Shown here in pieces: positions 8,723 through 40,194 of a DNA stretch of 64,000 bases; within the stretch, counting starts at the first letter, position 1; every line of letters starts with the position of its first letter. Both the position numbers and the translations under genes were made by a program. The stretch is from Micromonospora halotolerans (lineage in GTDB: Bacteria; Actinomycetota; Actinomycetes; Mycobacteriales; Micromonosporaceae): assembly GCF_032108445.1 (NCBI RefSeq), contig NZ_CP134876.1, positions 5,270,001 through 5,334,000 of the forward strand. Direction: 5' to 3'. The notes under the pieces were generated by a model. That model made no database searches, had not been told where the DNA came from, and worked only from the letters and a program-made list of their open reading frames with translations.

Positions 8723-9988
8723 ATGAGAGTCCGGGCCCTGGCCGCCACCACCGTCCTCGCCCTGCTCGTCACCGGGGCGCCGGCCCCGGCGCAGGCGGCG
8801 CCGCCGGCGACCGCCGCCCCCGCGGCGGCGGTGCCCTGCCCGCGGCTCCCGGCGCCGAAGGTGACCCGCCCGCCGCGCCCCACTCCGCCGCCGCCCGTGC
8901 CCGGGGACCAGACCGTCGGCGGCGAGGCGCTGGCCTCGGCGGGCCTGGTGACGGCGCCCGGCAGCCCGGCGCCCCCAGCGGTCACGGCCACCACCTGGCT
9001 GGTCGCCGACCTGGACACCGGCGCCGTCCTCGGCGCCTGCGGCCCGCACGAGCACGGCATCCCGGCGAGCACCCAGAAGCTGCTGCTCGCGGCCACCCTG
9101 CTCAACCGGCTCGACCCGAAGCAGACGGCCATCGCGACCAGGGCCGACCTGGACATCGAGCGGGGCAGCTCCGCCGTCGGCCTGCTCGTCGGCGGGCGCT
9201 ACTCGGTGGAGACGCTCTGGCTGGGGCTGCTGCTCCAGTCCGGCAACGACGCGGCGAACATGCTGGCCCGGCTCGGCGCCGGCAGCGCCCGTGCCGGTGT
9301 CGCCGAGATGAACGCCGAGGCGCGCCGGCTGGGCGCCCGCCAGACCCACGCCGTGACCCCGTCCGGGTTGGACGGTCCCGGGCAGTTCACCAGCGCGTAC
9401 GACCTGGCCCTGATCGCCCGGGCCTGCTTCGCCGACGCGGCGTTCCGCCGCTACGCGCTCACCGAGCGGACCCAGATCCCCGCCCAGCGGGCGCTGAAGG
9501 CGGGCGGCTTCCAGATCCAGAACGAGAACCAGCTGATCTACCGCTACCCGGGTGCCCTCGGCGGCAAGACCGGCTTCACCGAGCTGGCCCGGCACAGCTT
9601 CGTCGGCGCGGCCCAGCGCGGCGGCCGGCGGCTCGTGGTCACTTTGCTGGGCGCCGAGTCCCGCCCGGTACGCGGCTGGCAGCAGGGCGCCCAACTGCTC
9701 GACTGGGGCTTCTCGCTGCCCCGGGACGCCTCGGTCGGCCGGCTGGTCGACCCGGGCGAGCTGGACGCCGAGCGGGCCGCCCCGAGCGGTTCACCGGCGG
9801 CGGCCCGCCCGACCCCGCCGCCGGAGTGGCGCGGGCCGGCCGGGACCGCGCTGCGCCGGATGGCCGACGGTGACTGGCAGGTCATCGTGCCCGCCGCCGG
9901 CCTGCTCGCGCTCGTCGTCGGCGGGCTGGCGGCGGTGCTGGCCGCCCGCCGGGGCCGGTCCCGCGGGGCCGGCCGCCGCCGCGCCTGA
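8723..9988 (+). CDS. D-alanyl-D-alanine carboxypeptidase (peptidase family S11), copy 1
   Basis: This 421-residue exported penicillin-binding protein trims the terminal D-Ala of peptidoglycan stem peptides. In order it has: a signal peptide (1-26); a Pro-rich linker; the catalytic domain with SxxK as STQK, SGN in LLLQSGNDAANML, and KTG in LGGKTGFTELA; and a C-terminal membrane anchor (VIVPAAGLLALVVGGLAAVLA) with a basic tail. All three catalytic motifs are intact. A close paralogue lies at 28382-29671; long stretches around PSGLDGPGQFTSAYDLALIA are nearly identical. The two copies probably arose by duplication. Confidence 0.92.
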   Translation: MRVRALAATTVLALLVTGAPAPAQAAPPATAAPAAAVPCPRLPAPKVTRPPRPTPPPPVPGDQTVGGEALASAGLVTAPGSPAPPAVTATTWLVADLDTGAVLGACGPHEHGIPASTQKLLLAATLLNRLDPKQTAIATRADLDIERGSSAVGLLVGGRYSVETLWLGLLLQSGNDAANMLARLGAGSARAGVAEMNAEARRLGARQTHAVTPSGLDGPGQFTSAYDLALIARACFADAAFRRYALTERTQIPAQRALKAGGFQIQNENQLIYRYPGALGGKTGFTELARHSFVGAAQRGGRRLVVTLLGAESRPVRGWQQGAQLLDWGFSLPRDASVGRLVDPGELDAERAAPSGSPAAARPTPPPEWRGPAGTALRRMADGDWQVIVPAAGLLALVVGGLAAVLAARRGRSRGAGRRRA

Positions 9989-10156: not shown

Positions 10157-12502
10157 ATGCCCCGGACCCACCGTCCGTCACCGGCGCTGGTCCTCGGCCT
10201 GGTCCTGTCCGGGGGACTCTTCGCGCTGGTCAGCGCCTGGGCGCGGCACCGGCCCCCCGGCCGCTGGGAGCGGGACCTGTTCACGCTGGTCAACCAGATC
10301 CCCGGCCCGGTCGGCCCGGTGCTGGTGCCGATCATGCAGCTCGGCGCGTACCCGGCGATCCTGGTCGCGGCGGCGGTCGCGGCGGCGGCCCGGCAGTGGC
10401 GGCTCGCCCGCGACCTTCTGCTCGCCGGAAACCTGGCCTACTGGGGGGCCGTACTGGCCAAGCTCGTGGTGGGCCGGGTCCGGCCGGCCGCCTTCCTGGC
10501 CGACATCCGGCTGCACGAGACCGTCACCGGGCGCTACGGCTACCCGTCCGGGCACCTGGCGGTGGCGACGGCACTCGTGGCGGTCCTCGCCCCGGTGCTG
10601 CCCCGGCGGGTCCGCCCGCTCGCCTGGCTCGCGGTGGCCGCCGTCGGGACGGCCCGGGTCTACGTGGGTGCCCACCTGCCGGTCGACGTGCTGGGCGGGT
10701 TCCTGGTCGGCTGGTTCATGGCGAGCCTCACCCGGATGATCGTCGGTGACGTGGGGCCGGGCGGCACGGTGGGGCGGCTGCGGCAGGTGCTCCTCGGTCG
10801 CGGCATCGAGGCGGTCGAGCTGACCCCGGTCCGGGGCGACGCCCGGGGCTCCCGACCGTTGCGGGTCACCACCGCGGACGGCCGGCGCCTCTTCGTCAAG
10901 GTCACCGGGGGCAGCCAGCGGGACGCCGACTGGCTCTACAAGCTCTACCGCCGGCTGCGCTACCGCGGCATCGTCGACGAACCGCCGTACGTGACCGCGA
11001 AGCAGAAGAGCGAGCACGAGGCGTACCTCCTGCTGCGCGCGGAGCGGGCCGGGGTACGTACGCCGCGCCTGGTCGCCACCGCCACCGACCCGGCCGGGGA
11101 CGCGCTGCTGGTGCAGGAGTTCGTTCCGGGCCGGCCGCTCGACGCGCTGGAGCCGGCCGAACTCGGCCCGGACCTGCTCGACGACGTCTGCCGGCAGGTG
11201 GCCCGCCTGCACCGGGCCGGCCTGGCCCACCGGGACCTGCGGGCGGCCAACGTGCTGGTCGCGGACTCCACCGCCTGGCTGGTCGACCTCGGCTCCGGCA
11301 CCGACGAGGCATCCGCCGACCAGCAGGCCCGCGACCTGGTGGAACTCCTGGTCACGCTGGCGGCGCTGGCCGGCGTGCGCCCGGCGGTGGCGGCCGCCGT
11401 CGGGCAGCTCGGCGCCGGTGCGGTCGCGGACAGCCTGCCGTGGCTCCAGCCGGCGCTGCTGTCCCGCGCCGGCCGGGCGCTCGCCGACCGCCGGCCCGGG
11501 CTGCTCGACGACCTGCACGACGAGATCGCCCGCCGCTGCCCCGGGCGCCCCGACCACCTCGCCCGGGTCGTCCGGATCACCCGCCGGGACGTGTTCCTGC
11601 TCGTCATGCTCGGCCTGCTGGTGCACTTCCTGCTGCCGCAGATCGGCCAGGTCCGCGCCGCCCTGCACGCGGTGGTCCACGCCGCCCCCCTGGCGGTGAT
11701 CGGGGTTCTGCTCGCCTCGGCCGCCACCTACCTGCTGAGCGCGATGGCGCTGCGGCTCGCCACCGCCGGGCGGGTGCCGCTCGGCCGGACGATCGCGGTC
11801 CAGGTGGCCGCCTCGTTCGTCAACCGGCTCGCGCCGGGCGCGCTCGGCGGCGCCGCGCTGAGCATCCGCTACCTGCGCCAGCAGGGCCTGCCCGTACCGG
11901 CGGCGGCGACCGCGGTCGCCGTGGACCGGGTCGCCGGCGTGCTCGGCGTCCTGCTCCTGCTGCCGGTCCTGCTGCCGTTCGCCCGGGGCACCCGTCGGCA
12001 CCTGATGAACGCCGCCACCGGGCGGGGCCTGACGGTGCTGCTGATCGTGCTCGGCGTGCTGCTGGTCGTCGCCGTGGCCTTCGCCGTACCACGGTGGCGG
12101 GCCTGGCTGCGGACGGCCCGGCGGCAGGCCGCGGACGCCCTGCGCGCGCTGGTCCGCGGTGGCCGGATCCTGCCGCTGCTGAGCGTCAGCGTGGCGCTCA
12201 CCATCGCCTACGGGGCCGCGCTGTACCTGGCGCTGCTCGCCGTCGGCCTGCCGACCGACCCGGTGCTGATCGCGCCGGTGGTGCTGGTGTGCGTGGTGGG
12301 GGAGGGGGTGTCGTCGGCCGCGCCGACCCCGGGCGGGTTGGGCGCCACCGAGGCGGCCCTGGTTTCCGGCCTGCTGCTCTACGGCGTCGCGGTGGACACC
12401 GCCGTCGCCGGGGTGCTGGTCTACCGGCTCGCCACGTTCTGGCTGCCGGTGCTGCCCGGGTACGCGGCGTTGCGCCTGCTCGTCCGCCGCGGCGCGGTGT
12501 GA
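10157..12502 (+). CDS. PAP2 phosphatase - lipopolysaccharide/aminoglycoside-type kinase - LPG-synthase-like flippase fusion
   Basis: The 781-residue three-part membrane protein begins with a PAP2 lipid phosphatase (about 1-200): KLVVGRVRP, PSGH and ARVYVGAHLPVD cover the three phosphatase motifs, with Ala where Ser often starts motif 3. Next is a kinase-like domain (about 215-460) with HRDLRAANVLV and VDLGSGTD, the catalytic loop and metal-binding Asp of APH/WaaP-like kinases. The last part (about 478-775) is an 8-helix MprF-flippase-like domain (UPF0104), with FVNRLAPGALGGAA and SAAPTPGGLGATEAAL. This suggests coupled dephosphorylation, phosphorylation and flipping of a polyprenyl or glycerolipid intermediate (inference). 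A remnant glycolipid glycosyltransferase follows directly. Confidence 0.82.
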   Translation: MPRTHRPSPALVLGLVLSGGLFALVSAWARHRPPGRWERDLFTLVNQIPGPVGPVLVPIMQLGAYPAILVAAAVAAAARQWRLARDLLLAGNLAYWGAVLAKLVVGRVRPAAFLADIRLHETVTGRYGYPSGHLAVATALVAVLAPVLPRRVRPLAWLAVAAVGTARVYVGAHLPVDVLGGFLVGWFMASLTRMIVGDVGPGGTVGRLRQVLLGRGIEAVELTPVRGDARGSRPLRVTTADGRRLFVKVTGGSQRDADWLYKLYRRLRYRGIVDEPPYVTAKQKSEHEAYLLLRAERAGVRTPRLVATATDPAGDALLVQEFVPGRPLDALEPAELGPDLLDDVCRQVARLHRAGLAHRDLRAANVLVADSTAWLVDLGSGTDEASADQQARDLVELLVTLAALAGVRPAVAAAVGQLGAGAVADSLPWLQPALLSRAGRALADRRPGLLDDLHDEIARRCPGRPDHLARVVRITRRDVFLLVMLGLLVHFLLPQIGQVRAALHAVVHAAPLAVIGVLLASAATYLLSAMALRLATAGRVPLGRTIAVQVAASFVNRLAPGALGGAALSIRYLRQQGLPVPAAATAVAVDRVAGVLGVLLLLPVLLPFARGTRRHLMNAATGRGLTVLLIVLGVLLVVAVAFAVPRWRAWLRTARRQAADALRALVRGGRILPLLSVSVALTIAYGAALYLALLAVGLPTDPVLIAPVVLVCVVGEGVSSAAPTPGGLGATEAALVSGLLLYGVAVDTAVAGVLVYRLATFWLPVLPGYAALRLLVRRGAV

Positions 12503-12530
12503 TCGCGGCGTGGACGGCGTGGCCGTGGGT

Positions 12531-12840
12531 ATGCGCCGCGACATGGAGGGGCCCGGACGGATCGTGGTGGTCTCCGCGGACATCGGCGCCGGGCACGACG
12601 CGGCCGCCGCCGAGCTGGTCCGGCGGCTGCGCGGCCGGGCCTCGTGGTGGACCGGCTGAACGGCCTGACCTGCCGGGAGGGGCTGGCGTGTGCGGTGCCG
12701 GTGGTGACGTACCGGCCGATCCCGGGCACAGGCGGGCGAACGCCACGATCCTGGCGAGGACCGGCCTCACCCGGTGGGTGCCCGGGCCGGACCAGCTCGG
12801 ACCGGTGCTGGCCGCGCTGTTAAGCGAGGCGGACGGTGGA
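12531..12840 (+). pseudogene. Decayed MGDG-synthase-like GT-B glycosyltransferase
   Basis: The first frame reads GRIVVVSADIGAGHDAAAAEL, the N-terminal motif of MGDG-synthase/MurG-like glycosyltransferases, and stops after about 42 codons. Another frame then gives LVVDRLNGL and EGLACAVPVVTYRPIPG, the UDP-sugar-binding C-terminal motif. A further one-base shift gives RRANATILARTGLTRWV. So the beginning and end of one enzyme survive with several hundred codons missing and at least two frameshifts. No intact reading frame remains up to 13107, and the trailing 12840-13107 DNA shows nothing I can assign. Loss next to the lipid-handling fusion gene suggests that a glycolipid pathway was abandoned. 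Confidence 0.72.
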
Positions 12841-13107
12841 GCCTCGGACCGCGACGGCGACCCGGGCGCCGCCCCGAACCGGCGGCGGCCGGCCGCACGC
12901 CGGGCCCCGATCTCGCAGGCCCGACCGCCGACCCGGCGGGCGTGGTCGCCGAGGCGGCCGGCCGGGCCGGCAGCGCGGGCGTCGAGGAGCGCGGTCGCCG
13001 GACCCTCGGCGACTCGCTCGGTGACGCGGTGGCGGCACCGGGACCTGTCCCGCTGACCTCCACGGTGCCGGCCGGCGCCTGCCCGTCCCGACCGGGACGG
13101 CCGATGG

Positions 13108-34914: not shown

Positions 34915-35025
34915 ATGCGAGCCGCGTGCATGTCCCCGCAGAAGCGAATCACCGCCGACCACAAGGACATGACGCTGCGTGAAAACCCTCAATCTCGGCA
35001 TCCTCGCCCATGTCGACGCCGGTAA
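34915..35025 (+). CDS. Leader ORF overlapping the ribosomal-protection gene (candidate attenuator peptide)
   Basis: This 36-codon ORF begins at an ATG with AAGGAGGAG 6 nt upstream, the best ribosome binding site in this area. It starts MRAACMSPQKRITADHKDM and ends in Arg-rich HPRPCRRR at a TAA. It overlaps the first 47 nt of the GTPase gene in another frame. The GTPase GTG at 34979 itself has almost no Shine-Dalgarno sequence, so its translation may depend on ribosomes travelling through this ORF. Leader peptides of this kind sense ribosome-targeting drugs upstream of tet(M)- and erm-type genes. The peptide itself is not a family I recognise. Confidence 0.55.
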   Translation: MRAACMSPQKRITADHKDMTLRENPQSRHPRPCRRR

Positions 35026-36985
35026 GACGAGCCTGACCGAACGGCTGCTGCACAGCGCCGGGGTCATCGACGAGCCCGGCAGTGTCGACGCCGGCAGCAC
35101 CCGCACCGACACGCTGGCGCTGGAGCGGCAGCGGGGCATCACCATCCGCTCCGCCGTGGTCTCCTTCGCCGTCTCCGGTACCACCGTCAACCTCATCGAC
35201 ACCCCGGGCCACCCCGACTTCATCGCCGAGGTGGAACGCGTGCTCGGCGTGCTCGACGGCGCGGTGCTCGTGGTCTCCGCCGTCGAGGGCGTCCAGGCCC
35301 AGACCCGGGTGCTGGCCCGCACCCTGCGCCGCCTCGGCATCCCCACCCTCTTCTTCGTGAACAAGGTGGACCGGGCCGGCGCCGACCCGGACCGGGTGCT
35401 GCGCCAGCTCGCCGACCGGCTCACCCCCGACGTCGTCGCCCTCGGCCGGGTCGACGCCCCCGGCACGCCGGGCGCCCGCTGGGTGCCGCACCCGCCGGGC
35501 GACCCCGGCCACCAGGCCCGCCTGGTCGACCTGCTCTCCGCACACGACGACGCCCTGCTGGCCGCGTACGTGGCCGACGAGCGGACGATCACCTCGGACC
35601 GGCTGCGCACGGCGCTCGCCGCGCAGACCGCCCGCGCCCGGGTGCACCCCGTGCTCGCCGGCTCCGCCATCACCGGCGCCGGGGTGGCCGACCTGATCGA
35701 CGCGGTCACCGCGCTGCTCCCCACCACCGAGGGTGACGACCACGCCCCGCTCTCCGGCGCCGTCTTCAAGGTCGAGCGCGGCCCGGCCGGCGAGAAGGTC
35801 GCGTACGCGCGGATCTTCGCCGGGACCGTGCGGGTCCGCGACCGGATCCGCCACGGCGACGGCCAGGAGGCCCGGGTCACCGCCCTCGGCGTGTTCGACG
35901 GCGGCGACGCGACGCCCGACGACGCTGCCGGTCCCGGCCGGATCGTCCGGCTGCACGGCCTCGCCGGCGTCCGCGTCGGCGACGTGCTCGGCGTCCCGCC
36001 CGACCGCCCCGCCGCGCGGCGCCACTTCGCCCCGCCAACGCTGGAGACCGTCGTCGAGCCGGTACGCCCGGCCGACCGTCCGGCCCTGCACGCCGCCCTG
36101 ACCCAGCTCGCCGAGCAGGACCCGCTGATCAACCTGCGGCAGGACGACCGGCGCCAGGAGATCGCCGTGTCCCTCTACGGCGAGGTGCAGAAGGAGGTCA
36201 TCGAGGCCACCCTCGCCGACGACTACGGCGTCCCGGTCACCTTCCGGGAGACCACCACGGTCTGCGTGGAGCGGGTGGTCGGCGTGGGCTCCGCCGTCGA
36301 GTGGATCGGCCGGGAACCCAACCCGTTCCTCGGCACCGTCGGCCTGCGCGTCGAGCCCGGGCCGGTCGGTGGCGGCGTCGAGTTCCGGCTCGGCATCGAA
36401 CTCGGCTCGATGCCGCTGGCCTTCCTCAAGGCCATCGAGGAGACCGTCCGCGAGACCCTGCGCCAGGGCCTGCACGGCTGGGATGTCGTCGACTGCGTGG
36501 TCACCCTGACGCACGGCGGCTACTGGGCCCGGCAGAGCCACGCCCACGGCGTGTTCGACAAGAGCATGTCCAGCACGGCCGGGGACTTCCGAAACCTCAC
36601 CCCGCTGGTGCTCATGGCCGCGCTCACCCGCGCCGGCACCCGGGTCCACGAGCCGATGCACCGGTTCCGGCTCGACCTCCCCGCCGACCTGGTGGGGGCG
36701 GTGCTGCCCGTGCTCGCCGGGCTGGGCGCCGCGACCCGCGCCAGCACCCTGCGCGGCGCGTCCTACCTCATCGAGGGGGAGGTGCCGGCCGGGCGGGTGC
36801 ACGCGCTGGAGCAGCGGCTGCCCGGGCTCACCCGCGGGGAGGGCACCCTGGAGGCCGAGTTCGACCACCACCGACCGGTACGCGGGCCGGCCCCGAGCCG
36901 GCCGCGCTGGGACCACGACCCGCTGCACCGCAAGGAGTACCTGCTCGCGGTGGCCCGCCGGGTCACCGGCCGGCCGGCGCGCTGA
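34979..36985 (+). CDS. TetM/OtrA-like ribosomal protection protein (EF-G-like GTPase)
   Basis: The 668-residue translational GTPase has G1 AHVDAGKT at 10-17, G3 DTPGH, G4 NKVD, followed by domain II (AYARIFAGTVRVRDRI) and EF-G-like domains III-V (SLYGEVQKEVIEATLADDYGV, GSMPLAFLKAIEETVRETL). Length and layout match TetM/TetO/OtrA proteins, which remove tetracyclines from the ribosome. Whether it gives real resistance is unknown; many soil actinomycetes carry such genes intrinsically. The GTG start is fixed by homology, since no ribosome binding site is visible. Translation is probably coupled to the leader ORF. Its last 23 nt overlap the convergent gene at 36963. Confidence 0.87.
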   Translation: MKTLNLGILAHVDAGKTSLTERLLHSAGVIDEPGSVDAGSTRTDTLALERQRGITIRSAVVSFAVSGTTVNLIDTPGHPDFIAEVERVLGVLDGAVLVVSAVEGVQAQTRVLARTLRRLGIPTLFFVNKVDRAGADPDRVLRQLADRLTPDVVALGRVDAPGTPGARWVPHPPGDPGHQARLVDLLSAHDDALLAAYVADERTITSDRLRTALAAQTARARVHPVLAGSAITGAGVADLIDAVTALLPTTEGDDHAPLSGAVFKVERGPAGEKVAYARIFAGTVRVRDRIRHGDGQEARVTALGVFDGGDATPDDAAGPGRIVRLHGLAGVRVGDVLGVPPDRPAARRHFAPPTLETVVEPVRPADRPALHAALTQLAEQDPLINLRQDDRRQEIAVSLYGEVQKEVIEATLADDYGVPVTFRETTTVCVERVVGVGSAVEWIGREPNPFLGTVGLRVEPGPVGGGVEFRLGIELGSMPLAFLKAIEETVRETLRQGLHGWDVVDCVVTLTHGGYWARQSHAHGVFDKSMSSTAGDFRNLTPLVLMAALTRAGTRVHEPMHRFRLDLPADLVGAVLPVLAGLGAATRASTLRGASYLIEGEVPAGRVHALEQRLPGLTRGEGTLEAEFDHHRPVRGPAPSRPRWDHDPLHRKEYLLAVARRVTGRPAR

Positions 36986-37349: not shown

Positions 37350-37408
37350 GGCCACAGGCTAGGGCCGGTACCGTTCGGCGCCGGCTGAAACGTCCTCGCG
37401 AATATCCG

Positions 37409-37438
37409 TTGCCACGGTCCCGGCCCCGTCCGTACCGT
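37409..37438 (+). promoter_or_regulatory. Putative promoter of the leader-tRNA-rtcB unit
   Basis: TTGCCA (37409-37414) and TACCGT (37433-37438) are separated by 18 nt, a reasonable sigma70-type pair for an actinomycete. Transcription would start near 37445, about 40 nt before the leader peptide start. Confidence 0.45.
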
Positions 37439-37482
37439 GAACGGGCCAACATCACCCGGTTCCACCACCCAGGGAGCACACC

Positions 37483-37605
37483 GTGTCGCAGCAGAACCGC
37501 ACCCGAGCCGAGCGGCCCGCGCCGCGCGGCGGTGCCCTGCTGCCCGAGTCGGGCCTGGGTCGCTGCCGACGGCAGCAGTGGCAACCGGGGTGGTGGCGCG
37601 ACTAG
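37483..37605 (+). CDS. Trp-rich leader peptide candidate
   Basis: This 40-codon ORF has GGGAG before its GTG start and ends with ...RRQQWQPGWWRD, three Trp codons among the last nine. A hairpin with a T-run follows 23 nt after the stop. The segment spanning the Trp codons, CGGGGTGG (37586-37593), is exactly complementary to CCACCCCG (37634-37641) in the terminator hairpin, so alternative structures are possible. This is the layout of a tryptophan attenuator. No trp biosynthesis gene follows; the next features are two tRNA genes and rtcB. No homologue is recognised. Confidence 0.5.
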   Translation: MSQQNRTRAERPAPRGGALLPESGLGRCRRQQWQPGWWRD

Positions 37606-37627
37606 CGCCGGCGCGACACACACGCGC

Positions 37628-37664
37628 AGCCGCCCACCCCGAGCCAGGGGACCGGGCGGCTTTT
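37628..37664 (+). terminator. Terminator/attenuator hairpin with T-run upstream of the tRNA genes
   Basis: AGCCGCCC (37628-37635) pairs with GGGCGGCT (37654-37661), with a further inner CCCC/GGGG pairing, followed by TTTT. It sits between the leader peptide and the first tRNA and could control read-through into tRNA-tRNA-rtcB. Confidence 0.65.
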
Positions 37665-37720
37665 CGTCACCCACCCCGGGTTCGCGTACCTCCCCGCGGA
37701 CGGCACCCGCCGTCCCGCAC

Positions 37721-37792
37721 GGGCCGTTGGAGCAATGGCAGCTCACCCGGTTCTCAGCCGGAAGGTTACGGGTTCGAGTCCCGTACGGCCTA
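37721..37792 (+). tRNA. Atypical tRNA, anticodon CTC (Glu by anticodon)
   Basis: A full cloverleaf can be drawn: acceptor 37721-37727 with 37785-37791 (first pair G-T), D stem GAGC/GCTC, anticodon loop TTCTCAG with CTC at 37753-37755, and T arm ACGGG-TTCGAGT-CCCGT. The first anticodon-stem pair is C-A. No CCA is encoded. It does not resemble the usual actinobacterial tRNA-Glu, which starts GCCCC. It is therefore probably an accessory tRNA linked to rtcB rather than a housekeeping gene. Confidence 0.75.
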
Positions 37793-37820
37793 CGCCTGGT
37801 CCCGATCCCGGGACCACCCC

Positions 37821-37894
37821 GCGGTTGTAGCGCAGTCAGGCAGCGCGTCACCTCGCCATGGTGAAGATCGCCGGTTCGAATCCGGCCAGCCGCT
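37821..37894 (+). tRNA. Atypical tRNA-like gene, anticodon-position GCC
   Basis: A 74-nt cloverleaf has all four stems: acceptor GCGGTTG/CAGCCGC, D stem GCGC/GCGC, anticodon stem TCACC/GGTGA and T arm GCCGG-TTCGAAT-CCGGC. The 7-nt anticodon loop is TCGCCAT, so position 33 is C instead of the almost invariant T. The anticodon would be GCC (Gly). The discriminator is T and no CCA is encoded. It ends 31 nt before the rtcB start. This looks like a tRNA mimic or a decoy/substrate RNA rather than a normal tRNA. Confidence 0.65.
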
Positions 37895-37925
37895 CGGACA
37901 GCACCCCCGAACCGAGGAGACGACG

Positions 37926-39125
37926 ATGGGTTTCACCCCGCTGGCCGGTACCCGGGCGCCGGTCCGGGTCTGGACCGACCCGTACACGATCGAGGCGCAG
38001 GCGGCCCGGCAGCTGCGCAACATCGGCGCGCTGCCCTGGGTGCAGGGCGTCGCCGTGATGCCGGACGTGCACTTCGGCAAGGGCGCCACCGTCGGGTCGG
38101 TCATCGCCATGCGGCAGGCCGTCTCGCCCGCCGCGGTCGGCGTCGACATCGGCTGCGGGATGTCCGCGGTGCGCACCTCGCTCACCGCGGCCGACCTGCC
38201 CGACGACCTGGGCCCTCTGCGCAGCGCCATCGAGGCGGCCATCCCGGTCGGCTTCGCCATGCGCGCCGACGCGGTCGACCCGCGCCGCGTCCGCGGCCTG
38301 GAGCAGGGCGGCTGGGACGACTTCTGGCGCCGCTTCGCCACCCTCGACCGGAAGGTGGCGCAGCTGGAGACCCGGGCCCAGCGCCAGCTGGGCACCCTCG
38401 GTGGCGGGAACCACTTCATCGAGGTCTGCCTCGAGCAGGGCGGCCCGGACGACGGCCGGGTCTGGCTGATGCTGCACTCCGGCTCCCGCAACATCGGCAA
38501 GGAACTCGCCGAGCGGCACATGGCGGTGGCCCGCGGGCTGCCGCACAACGTCGACCTGCCCGACCGGGACCTCGCGGTGTTCCTCGCCGGCACCCCGGAA
38601 ATGGACGCCTACCGCCGGGACCTCTTCTGGGCCCAGGAGTACGCGCGCCGCAACCGGGCCGTCATGCTCGCCCTGCTCTGCGCGGTGGTCCGGGATGAGT
38701 TCCCGCAGGTCAGCTACGACGAGCCGGTCTCCTGCCACCACAACTACGTGGCGGAGGAGAGCTACGACGGGGTCGAGGTGCTGGTGACCCGCAAGGGCGC
38801 GATCCGGGCCGGCCGGGGCGACCTGGGCATCATCCCGGGGTCGATGGGCACCGGGTCGTACATCGTGCGCGGCAAGGGCAACGTCGACGCGTACTGCTCG
38901 GCCTCGCACGGGGCCGGGCGGCGGATGTCGCGGGGGCAGGCGAAGCGGACGTACAGCACCGCCGACCTGGCCGCGCAGACGGCGGGCGTCGAGTGCCGCA
39001 AGGACGCCGGGGTGGTCGACGAGATCCCCGGCGCGTACAAGGACATCACCCAGGTGATGGCCCAGCAGGAGGACCTGGTCGAGGTGGTCGCCCACCTCAA
39101 GCAGGTCGTCTGCGTGAAGGGTTGA
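37926..39125 (+). CDS. rtcB: RNA-splicing/repair ligase RtcB
   Basis: The 399-residue GTP- and Mn-dependent ligase joins 2',3'-cyclic phosphate (or 3'-phosphate) and 5'-OH RNA ends. Signature motifs: MPDVHFGKGATVGSVIA, VGVDIGCGMSAVRT with the metal-binding Cys, GGGNHFIEV, LHSGSRNIGKEL, SCHHNYVAEE, and SASHGAGRRMSR with the His that is guanylylated. Length is normal for the bacterial RtcB branch. GAGGAG precedes ATG 37926. Two tRNA-like genes lie directly upstream in the same direction and a third follows its terminator. The natural substrate may be tRNAs cleaved by anticodon nucleases (inference). No rtcA or rsr partner is present. Confidence 0.93.
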   Translation: MGFTPLAGTRAPVRVWTDPYTIEAQAARQLRNIGALPWVQGVAVMPDVHFGKGATVGSVIAMRQAVSPAAVGVDIGCGMSAVRTSLTAADLPDDLGPLRSAIEAAIPVGFAMRADAVDPRRVRGLEQGGWDDFWRRFATLDRKVAQLETRAQRQLGTLGGGNHFIEVCLEQGGPDDGRVWLMLHSGSRNIGKELAERHMAVARGLPHNVDLPDRDLAVFLAGTPEMDAYRRDLFWAQEYARRNRAVMLALLCAVVRDEFPQVSYDEPVSCHHNYVAEESYDGVEVLVTRKGAIRAGRGDLGIIPGSMGTGSYIVRGKGNVDAYCSASHGAGRRMSRGQAKRTYSTADLAAQTAGVECRKDAGVVDEIPGAYKDITQVMAQQEDLVEVVAHLKQVVCVKG

Positions 39126-39127
39126 AC

Positions 39128-39163
39128 CGACCGGCGCCCCCCGAGGGGGAGGGGCGCCGGTCG
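39128..39163 (+). terminator. Terminator after rtcB
   Basis: A perfect 13-bp stem (39128-39140 with 39151-39163) with a 10-nt loop starts 2 nt after the rtcB stop. The next tRNA begins 4 nt downstream, so that tRNA probably has its own promoter or comes from read-through. Confidence 0.8.
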
Positions 39164-39166
39164 TCC

Positions 39167-39239
39167 GCCCCGGTGGCGCAGCGGAGAGCGCGCCGGTCTA
39201 CGAAACCGGAGAGCCCAGGTTCGAATCCTGGTCGGGGCA
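39167..39239 (+). tRNA. tRNA-Arg-like gene, anticodon ACG
   Basis: The 73-nt cloverleaf is regular: acceptor GCCCCGG/TCGGGGC, D stem GCGC/GCGC, anticodon stem CCGGT/ACCGG, loop CTACGAA with ACG at 39200-39202, and T arm CCAGG-TTCGAAT-CCTGG, discriminator A. No CCA is encoded. The D arm (GGCGCAGCGGAGAGCGCG) is copied at 40169-40186 in a broken tRNA half. The sequence differs from the common actinobacterial tRNA-Arg(ACG), so it may be an accessory copy. Confidence 0.78.
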
Positions 39240-39417: not shown

Positions 39418-39624
39418 CTACTCCTCGACCCACTCGAGCAGGTCACCGGGCTGGCAGTTCAGCACCCGGCACATGGCCTCCAGGGTGCTGAAGCGGACCG
39501 CCTTGGCCCGGCCGTTCTTCAGCACCGCGACATTCGCCGGGGTGAGCCCGACCCGCTCGGCGAACTCGCCGACGCTCATCTTGCGCTTGGCCAGCTCGAC
39601 GTCGATGCGGACGACGATGGGCAT
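39418..39624 (-). CDS. Small XRE-family HTH regulator (YozG-like)
   Basis: The 68-residue protein is a single Cro/C1-type helix-turn-helix: MSVGEFAERVGLTPANVAVLKNG, followed by VRFSTLEAMCRVLNCQPGDLLEW. Such mini-repressors are regularly encoded next to DUF2975 membrane proteins, where the pair is thought to form a sensor/regulator unit. The start ATG shares its A with the upstream TGA stop, so translation is coupled to the DUF2975 gene. Confidence 0.88.
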   Translation of the reverse strand: MPIVVRIDVELAKRKMSVGEFAERVGLTPANVAVLKNGRAKAVRFSTLEAMCRVLNCQPGDLLEWVEE

Positions 39625-40103
39625 CAGATCACCGCTTCCATGTCGGTCCGGAGCGTGGTGGCCTGCCGCAGCAGCTCCCGCATCACCACCATCAGCAGCC
39701 CCAGCACGGTCACCCCGGTCACCAGCAGGAACAACAGGATCGGCAGACCCGGGTCGTCGGCGTGGAAGCCGACGTAGAGGAAGACGGCCACGAGCACCAG
39801 CCACGCGGCGGCGATGGCCCACACGATCGCGTCCACCCACGCCAGCGACGCCTCGCTGAAGATGCGGTCGTTCTTGACCAGGGTGAGCAGCTTCCAGGTG
39901 CACACGATCACCACCTGCACGCAGAGCACCCAGAACACCGTCACCGCGGTCGCCGGCCAGCGGAGGTAGGCCATGTCCGGGTTCTCCCGGGCCATGTGCG
40001 CGAACTGCCCGGGCAGCGACATGACCTGGAAGAGGACCAGGATCCCGAACAGCAGCACGAGGAAGGCCTTGAGCGGAGCGACTGCTCGTTGAGCTGTGAA
40101 CAT
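39624..40103 (-). CDS. DUF2975 membrane protein
   Basis: The 159-residue protein has four membrane helices: about 12-30, 48-68, 90-112 and 122-142. The family-typical loop is LLTLVKNDRIFSEASLAWVDAI. Function is unknown; its partner is the XRE-like gene immediately downstream. The ATG at 40103 lies just 6 nt after a very good -10 box, so the mRNA is probably leaderless. Confidence 0.85.
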   Translation of the reverse strand: MFTAQRAVAPLKAFLVLLFGILVLFQVMSLPGQFAHMARENPDMAYLRWPATAVTVFWVLCVQVVIVCTWKLLTLVKNDRIFSEASLAWVDAIVWAIAAAWLVLVAVFLYVGFHADDPGLPILLFLLVTGVTVLGLLMVVMRELLRQATTLRTDMEAVI

Positions 40104-40160: not shown

Positions 40161-40194
40161 GCCCCCGCGGCGCAGCGGAGAGCGCGTCGGGCGA
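40161..40194 (+). pseudogene. Broken 5' half of a tRNA gene
   Basis: The sequence GCCCCCG-CG-GCGC-AGCGGAGA-GCGC-G-TCGGG reproduces the acceptor 5' strand, D arm and 5' anticodon stem of a tRNA. The D arm is identical to the tRNA-Arg-like gene at 39167. The 3' half is absent; the next gene's stop codon begins at 40199. It marks the far edge of the small membrane-protein/XRE/DUF2975 cassette. Confidence 0.6.

Follow-up and report, generated by a model that had tools for sequence, protein, structure and literature searches.

Why should a gene for an RNA ligase stand among extra tRNA genes, behind a leader that looks like an attenuator? The question is raised by a locus around rtcB in a stretch of 64,000 nucleotides (hereafter the window) of Micromonospora halotolerans (assembly GCF_032108445.1, contig NZ_CP134876.1, positions 5,270,001 to 5,334,000 of the forward strand), taken from a genome that forms a single contig of 6.96 Mb. 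Here a promoter, a leader open reading frame (ORF), a terminator hairpin, tRNA-Glu, tRNA-Gly, rtcB, a further hairpin and tRNA-Arg follow one another in one cluster on the plus strand. The initial annotation had described them as one unit, in which odd tRNAs would act as spare, decoy or resistant copies during attack by anticodon nucleases, with RtcB repairing what is broken. We consider it probable (roughly 60%) that the locus is a small, eroded representative of an emergency translation module of Micromonospora, which would bring spare tRNAs and RNA repair under WhiB7-type and attenuator control; WhiB7 and blocked translation as the trigger is our addition to the earlier proposal.

A whiB7-like promoter

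The promoter of the unit, AATATC-CG-TTGCCA-18-TACCGT, was compared with the one that precedes the source genome's gene for a WhiB protein with an RGRPRK hook, which we take to be the mark of WhiB7; the latter promoter reads TAAATC-GT-TTGCCC-18-TAGCCT. A pattern drawn from both had two exact matches in the genome, by construction these two promoters, while one mismatch admitted a further site, on the 5′ side of a gene for RNase Z (533 bits at a cut-off of 416) at a distance of ~300 bp, with none for the reversed control. When a wider version of the motif was run over 41 genomes of the genus, it gave 50 matches, compared with 3 for its reversed control: 41 carried the promoter sequence of whiB7 (one per genome), five stood before rtcB leaders, three before stand-alone tRNA arrays and one elsewhere. 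A WhiB7-like ORF was present downstream in all 28 whiB7-promoter matches whose locus was returned.

The unit's promoter has the AT box near the −35 element, the spacer of 16–19 bp and the TANNNT by which WhiB7/WblC promoters are recognized. WblC promoters are described as carrying their box three bases before the −35 element, with spacers of 16–19 bp and a TANNNT (PMC7157823; here and below, published systems are compared from parts of the respective papers). Box placement, spacer (17–18 bp) and TANNNT are alike, and wblC itself has an upstream ORF attenuator; the differences are that the box there is GAAAWY and here GAATAT (5/6), and that rtc genes are absent from the main text of that report, whose WblC regulon includes tetM, tRNA processing genes and six tRNAs. 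In one feather-grown Streptomyces, whiB7, rtcB, rbn and several tRNAs were raised together (PMC7181669), which fits co-control and is no proof of it. The promoter points to WhiB7, and to blocked translation, as the probable trigger of the unit.

The leader and terminator are shared with stand-alone tRNA arrays

The short leader peptide, which ends in QWQPGWWRD in the window, has a clear version (R..PRGG..L...W.PGWRR[DE] and variants, judged by eye) before rtcB at 17 of 25 loci of the genus. It is kept at these loci irrespective of tRNAs, and a terminator then follows in most loci examined. A DNA pattern for the leader end, searched in 121 Micromonospora genomes, had 67 matches in 60 genomes; since its reversed control had 36, the pattern alone is unspecific and only inspected matches count. 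A leader ORF ended at the match in 25 of 30 returned loci, followed by rtcB in 20 and by a tRNA array in five, and did not in the other five. A set of 20 stretches, picked to include the array-like matches, comprised 14 arrays (with no RtcB motifs in 4.0–4.6 kb of downstream sequence) and six rtcB loci, and three more arrays were found through the promoter motif, with ~9–10 kb downstream read. Stand-alone arrays behind the same leader and terminator, with 5–36 tRNAs by ARAGORN, are therefore present in at least 17 of the 121 genomes. The sole leader-end match of the source genome is the rtcB locus.

Many arrays start in the order Trp-Pro-(Ala)-Glu-Gly and the fuller rtcB loci in the order Trp-Pro-Glu-Gly, and this shared start suggests that arrays and rtcB cassettes are of common descent. 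By comparison of these loci, promoter, leader peptide and terminator form the constant part, and RtcB and the tRNAs are variable cargo. The view of a single unit is borne out by the joint conservation of its elements in the genus; the proposal of a conserved unit of extra tRNAs with rtcB holds as well, with two amendments, namely that the promoter, leader and terminator are what stays constant and that the window is a reduced case (see below). None of the three outcomes that the initial annotation had named as fatal to its idea was observed: covariance scores are not poor, homologous loci do carry tRNAs, and the window's tRNAs are not the genome's only ones for Glu and Arg. We also noticed, by eye only, that genomes with a stand-alone array seem to have few tRNAs at rtcB, and the reverse.

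RtcB and its linkage to tRNA genes

The Pfam profile was matched by the 399-aa protein over its full length (positions 1–426 of 426), and the protein's DIGCG, GNHFIE, HSGSRN, CHHNY and SHGAGR motifs align with the active site of solved RtcB chains. This makes it a member of the RtcB RNA ligase family with predicted ligase activity. The genome encodes a second RtcB of 475 aa (39% identical), beside which no tRNAs were found. As noted before for the locus itself, rtcA and rsr are missing, and Pfam searches for PF01137 and PF05731 extend this to the whole genome.

Cassette rtcB was present in all 24 other Micromonospora genomes first sampled (split in two pieces in one, G013), and 12 of them carry a same-strand tRNA within 500 bp of it, making 13 of 25 loci with the window included; two of the 24 loci had only 134–160 bp of upstream sequence. 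Given ~0.008 tRNA per kb genome-wide (54 tRNA matches in the source genome), this linkage is beyond chance. The tRNA types beside rtcB vary within the genus, Trp, Pro, Glu, Gly, Arg, Gln, Leu, Ser and Cys among them.

The closest named relatives of the window's rtcB are those of Micromonospora species. In a partly overlapping sample of 80 named rtcB loci, same-strand tRNAs stand within 500 bp of the gene in 12, with a further dubious case; the 12 belong to Micromonospora (five of eight), Rhizocola hellebori, Kribbella (five of five) and one member of the Pseudonocardiaceae. No such tRNAs stand at the loci from Streptomyces, Amycolatopsis, Nocardia and Nonomuraea in this set, bar the one dubious call in Streptomyces, and at one Nocardiopsis locus a tRNA lies on the opposite strand. 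Among 33 rtcB loci from other genera of the Micromonosporaceae, three have clear tRNAs, one a dubious call and 29 none. One of the clear three, G070, has 22 tRNAs around rtcB once a distant spurious call is excluded. High tRNA number and density, the mark of a tRNA array unit, are found there and in the stand-alone arrays, compared with three tRNAs and one remnant in the window.

The extra tRNAs are redundant and structurally sound

All three window tRNAs exceed the Rfam gathering score of 29 bits comfortably (58.3, 61.8 and 65.9 bits), and the source genome has ordinary genes for Glu(CTC), Gly(GCC) and Arg(ACG) elsewhere. Around rtcB of Kribbella capetownensis, likewise, all nine tRNAs have an ordinary gene of the same anticodon elsewhere. 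Redundancy with the housekeeping set, a mark of spare tRNA operons of the Anabaena trn type, is therefore found here.

Could these genes simply supply more tRNA for frequent codons, with the link to rtcB due to chance? A high GC content should make GAG, GGC and CGC common codons, and this would suit such a role. The ordinary repeated tRNAs of the source genome (Val-GAC, Gly-GCC, Lys-CTT) are, however, near-identical copies, whereas the cassette tRNAs match their counterparts at only 60–80% of positions (Glu 44/73, Gly 59/74, Arg 47/73). The tRNA set also varies between close relatives, and a terminator ahead of the genes speaks against constant supply, so that plain dosage is very improbable.

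Paired changes maintain the stems of the cassette tRNA-Arg(ACG). Using 11 of 15 unique sequences, two-sided changes occurred at 12 of 21 pairs and 97.8% of cells were paired, values reached by none of 500 shuffles on either measure. These paired changes disfavour the notion that the tRNAs are pure pseudogenes, though single genes do decay. Judged by score, pairing and redundancy, the cassette tRNAs are structurally sound and additional to the ordinary set.

Two further tRNA genes of the source genome stand apart from the cassette. The sole tRNA-Leu(CAA) found (C1:4513344-4513417; locus L114, 3342-3418, minus strand) is 77 nt long, far from rtcB, without a long variable arm and shaped like cassette Leu tRNAs, and a weak match of 37.4 bits at C1:4815951-4816021 is invisible to ARAGORN.

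Altered anticodon loops

Measured against the ordinary tRNA sets of two genomes (the source genome and Kribbella), whose loops agree for 33 of 40 anticodons, 92 of the 114 unique cassette tRNAs have an anticodon loop that no ordinary tRNA shares, as would be expected of tRNAs resistant to anticodon nucleases. This loop is a common site of nuclease cuts. Dubious ARAGORN calls were excluded from the 114 (L186; L117 Ser-GGA, two fused tRNAs; L194 Glu-TTC; L133; L122; L105 Met), and keeping them gives 98 of 120; the excluded Ala call of L122 may be genuine, since L332 also has an Ala gene of this kind. Changes are most frequent at position 38, followed by 32, 37 and 33. In particular, A37 replaces G37 in 14 of 15 unique cassette Arg(ACG) genes, and C33 recurs in Gly(GCC) (Table 1). 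The cassette Leu tRNAs (n = 13) are 74–77 nt long and lack the long variable arm, while three stand-alone arrays hold four short Leu tRNAs and one long. Non-ordinary loops are less common in stand-alone arrays than at rtcB (42 of 61 in one set, 128 of 220 unique in another). The idea that the window tRNAs are spare copies thus gains on three sides: they are additional, they are sound and their loops are altered.

Similar loop changes relative to ordinary tRNAs are carried by phage tRNAs, where they have been read as nuclease evasion (PMC10264068); this likeness is one of sequence, and the cassette tRNAs differ in being chromosomal and partly coupled to RtcB. The same changes, together with the C33 of tRNA-Gly, could also impair decoding, and the tRNAs might then be decoys that absorb anticodon nucleases, or a signal for RtcB-linked repair. 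Yet anticodons are retained, as are U33 (102 of 114) and paired stems, and arrays of up to 36 tRNAs of many types fit decoding better than baiting. We regard a decoy or signal role as improbable.

The window as a reduced form of a larger locus

A genome assigned to the same species, G187, has eight tRNAs at this locus: Trp, Pro, Glu and Gly, then rtcB, Arg and Gln, and ~1 kb further Arg(CCG) and Cys. The main aligned blocks of the two are 92–97% identical. The region that holds Trp and Pro measures 261 bp in G187 and 21 bp in the window, which also lacks the Gln gene and a 153-bp segment that takes in most of Arg(CCG) and Cys; a 30-bp remnant of Arg(CCG) stays (Table 1). The Arg(CCG) difference is, on this alignment, a loss in the window's lineage, and loss is the simpler reading for Trp, Pro, Gln and Cys. 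By this comparison the window is partly a deletion derivative, a reduced example of a larger system.

Such rapid gain and loss, with half a tRNA left in the window, would also be expected if the tRNAs were decaying remnants of phage- or plasmid-type arrays that had landed behind the rtcB leader and have little present function. Kribbella capetownensis (L273) has an HNH endonuclease gene (9134–9709) inside its rtcB-tRNA array, as have tRNA array units of Mycobacterium avium (PMC12803027), and a phage-type integrase gene (11010–12932) outside the array on its 5′ side; these genes hint that such arrays can be mobile. Decay without function is nevertheless hard to reconcile with paired stem changes, with loop changes that recur across genera and with a conserved switch common to rtcB loci and stand-alone arrays, and the phage matches to the window tRNAs are partial and generic. 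We therefore hold the remnant explanation to be unlikely, if less so than a decoy role.

A recent phage origin of the window tRNAs was rejected: at most 36% of a Glu+Gly query (211 bases) and 73% of an Arg query (101 bases) was covered, at 73–89% identity among the matches listed. The best phage RtcB is 60% identical to that of the cassette; of two phage records with RtcB, one has tRNAs 1.3–5.6 kb away and the other none annotated. Three plasmid records with a close RtcB list no tRNA, in feature tables that contain no RNA genes.

Features of the locus and its surroundings

The elements first read from the letters were all recovered in place (Table 1), save one label. The hairpin behind rtcB exists, but it lacks a T run, which makes the label of a second terminator unsafe. 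Synteny suggests that tRNA-Arg lies on the same transcript as rtcB.

Table 1. Elements of the rtcB locus, in positions of the 64,000-nucleotide window.
Feature	Positions	Strand	Description
WhiB7-like promoter	37401–37438	+	AATATC box, 2 nt, TTGCCA (−35-like, from 37409), 18 nt, TACCGT (−10-like, from 37433); conserved in the genus
Leader ORF	37483–37605	+	GTG start, 40 codons, VSQQNRTRAERPAPRGGALLPESGLGRCRRQQWQPGWWRD; homologues precede rtcB and stand-alone tRNA arrays in relatives
Intrinsic-terminator hairpin (putative attenuator)	37628–37664	+	AGCCGCCC...GGGCGGCT and T run behind the leader stop; kept in relatives
Extra tRNA-Glu(CTC)	37721–37792	+	Rfam 58.3 bits; ordinary Glu(CTC) elsewhere in the genome
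Extra tRNA-Gly(GCC) with C33	37821–37894	+	Rfam 61.8 bits; C33 in 10 of 11 unique cassette Gly(GCC)
rtcB	37926–39125	+	399-aa RNA ligase family protein; Pfam PF01139, 417.7 bits; aligns with solved RtcB chains
Hairpin without T run, 3′ of rtcB	39130–39161	+	Read from sequence; possibly a weak terminator or a processing site
Extra tRNA-Arg(ACG), A37	39167–39239	+	Rfam 65.9 bits; paired changes across relatives
tRNA-Arg(CCG) remnant, 5′ part	40161–40190	+	Gene whole in same-species genome G187

Upstream of the unit lies a gene for an Otr(A)/TetM-like ribosome protection protein (34979–36985, plus strand), which scores below the curated naming cut-offs and has an AT-rich box ahead of TTGCCG in its 5′ region. 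The interval 39418–40103 (minus strand), between tRNA-Arg and the tRNA-Arg(CCG) remnant, holds a DUF2975 gene and a small DNA-binding-type ORF, which by eye we take to be XRE-like, and is preserved in the aligned G187 stretch. An ARAGORN call of tRNA-Ala(TGC) at 11632–11725 has no Rfam support and is probably spurious.

A model for the module and its weighing

In the mechanism that we propose, a WhiB7-type promoter would drive a leader RNA that encodes the short conserved peptide and ends in the terminator, and normal translation of the leader would keep the downstream genes off. Blocked translation or tRNA damage would raise WhiB7 and disturb leader translation, so that polymerase reads through into spare tRNAs with altered anticodon loops and into RtcB, which could reseal broken RNA; RNase Z, which is needed to mature tRNAs whose CCA end is not encoded, may fall under the same control. 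With the ordinary tRNAs cleaved or out of reach, the spare ones would sustain decoding. The sequences themselves show the parts and how they are conserved, the redundancy with ordinary tRNAs, the common leader and promoter and the altered loops; from these we infer control by WhiB7, attenuation through stalled ribosomes, resistance to nucleases and repair by RtcB.

In a wider version there would be a second tRNA set, silent in normal growth, with nuclease-resistant loops and near-complete in some species, which WhiB7 and a leader that senses ribosomes would switch on along with RtcB and RNase Z; we put this forward tentatively, as possible rather than probable. Its extension to Micromonospora and some other actinobacteria, whose tRNA pool would be replaced or repaired under attack by antibiotics, toxins or phages, is offered in the same speculative spirit.

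Several observations weigh against an emergency module. About half of the rtcB loci of the genus, and 29 of the 33 from other genera of the family, have no tRNAs. Two of the 50 promoter matches, whiB7 and rtcB of the window's genome, are there by construction, and the published WblC consensus, with one box mismatch allowed, stands upstream of rtcB in one of 68 loci (the named rtcB loci outside Micromonosporaceae), a Gordonia match that is the only occurrence of the promoter found outside Micromonospora. Pairing between the end of the leader and the terminator arm is possible in each of 15 sequences (L152 was excluded from the set), but as an antiterminator it is on average not clearly better than in shuffles (mean z −1.1, n = 15; window z −2.3). 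Finally, ordinary loops are found in 22 of the 114 cassette tRNAs and in 92 of 220 unique loops of stand-alone arrays.

Among known systems, the unit is best seen, by analogy, as an actinobacterial counterpart of the trn operon of Anabaena PCC 7120 with its co-regulated rtcB. There, too, a spare tRNA set stands beside the housekeeping one; it is normally silent and induced by translation-targeting antibiotics, with rtcB under the same control (PMC10272220). The Anabaena set comprises 26 plasmid-borne tRNAs, with rtcB at a separate locus and TrcR as repressor, whereas the Micromonospora system is chromosomal, has a putative leader attenuator and a whiB7-like promoter and either joins rtcB and tRNAs in a single unit or has them in parallel units. 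Mycobacterial, phage and plasmid tRNA array units (PMC5966550, PMC12803027) are likewise dense and redundant, with tRNAs unlike ordinary ones in sequence; RtcB and WhiB7 are unmentioned, and leader or promoter control does not appear, in the parts of these papers considered here. The Salmonella rsr-yrlBA-rtcBA operon (PMC7790460), with which the initial annotation had drawn a parallel, shares RtcB and, as a likely theme, tRNA damage. That parallel survives as a functional theme only, since here rsr and rtcA are missing, real tRNAs take the place of Y RNAs and the promoter is of another type; with both partners missing from the genome, an operon of the Salmonella type was rejected. In the open-access literature, the titles and abstracts among the matches listed described neither an RtcB-tRNA cassette nor a tRNA array in Micromonospora.

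Actinobacterial tRNA arrays have been described as a putative antidefence system (PMC12803027). The conserved switch seen here links arrays of this kind, as well as an RNA-repair ligase, with the apparent regulator of intrinsic resistance to ribosome-targeting antibiotics, and its presence before up to 36 spare tRNAs suggests a hidden emergency tRNA reserve. What spare tRNAs and bacterial RtcB are for thereby becomes directly testable in harmless soil bacteria and, if the proposal is true, tRNA replacement and repair would be added to the known routes of antibiotic tolerance.

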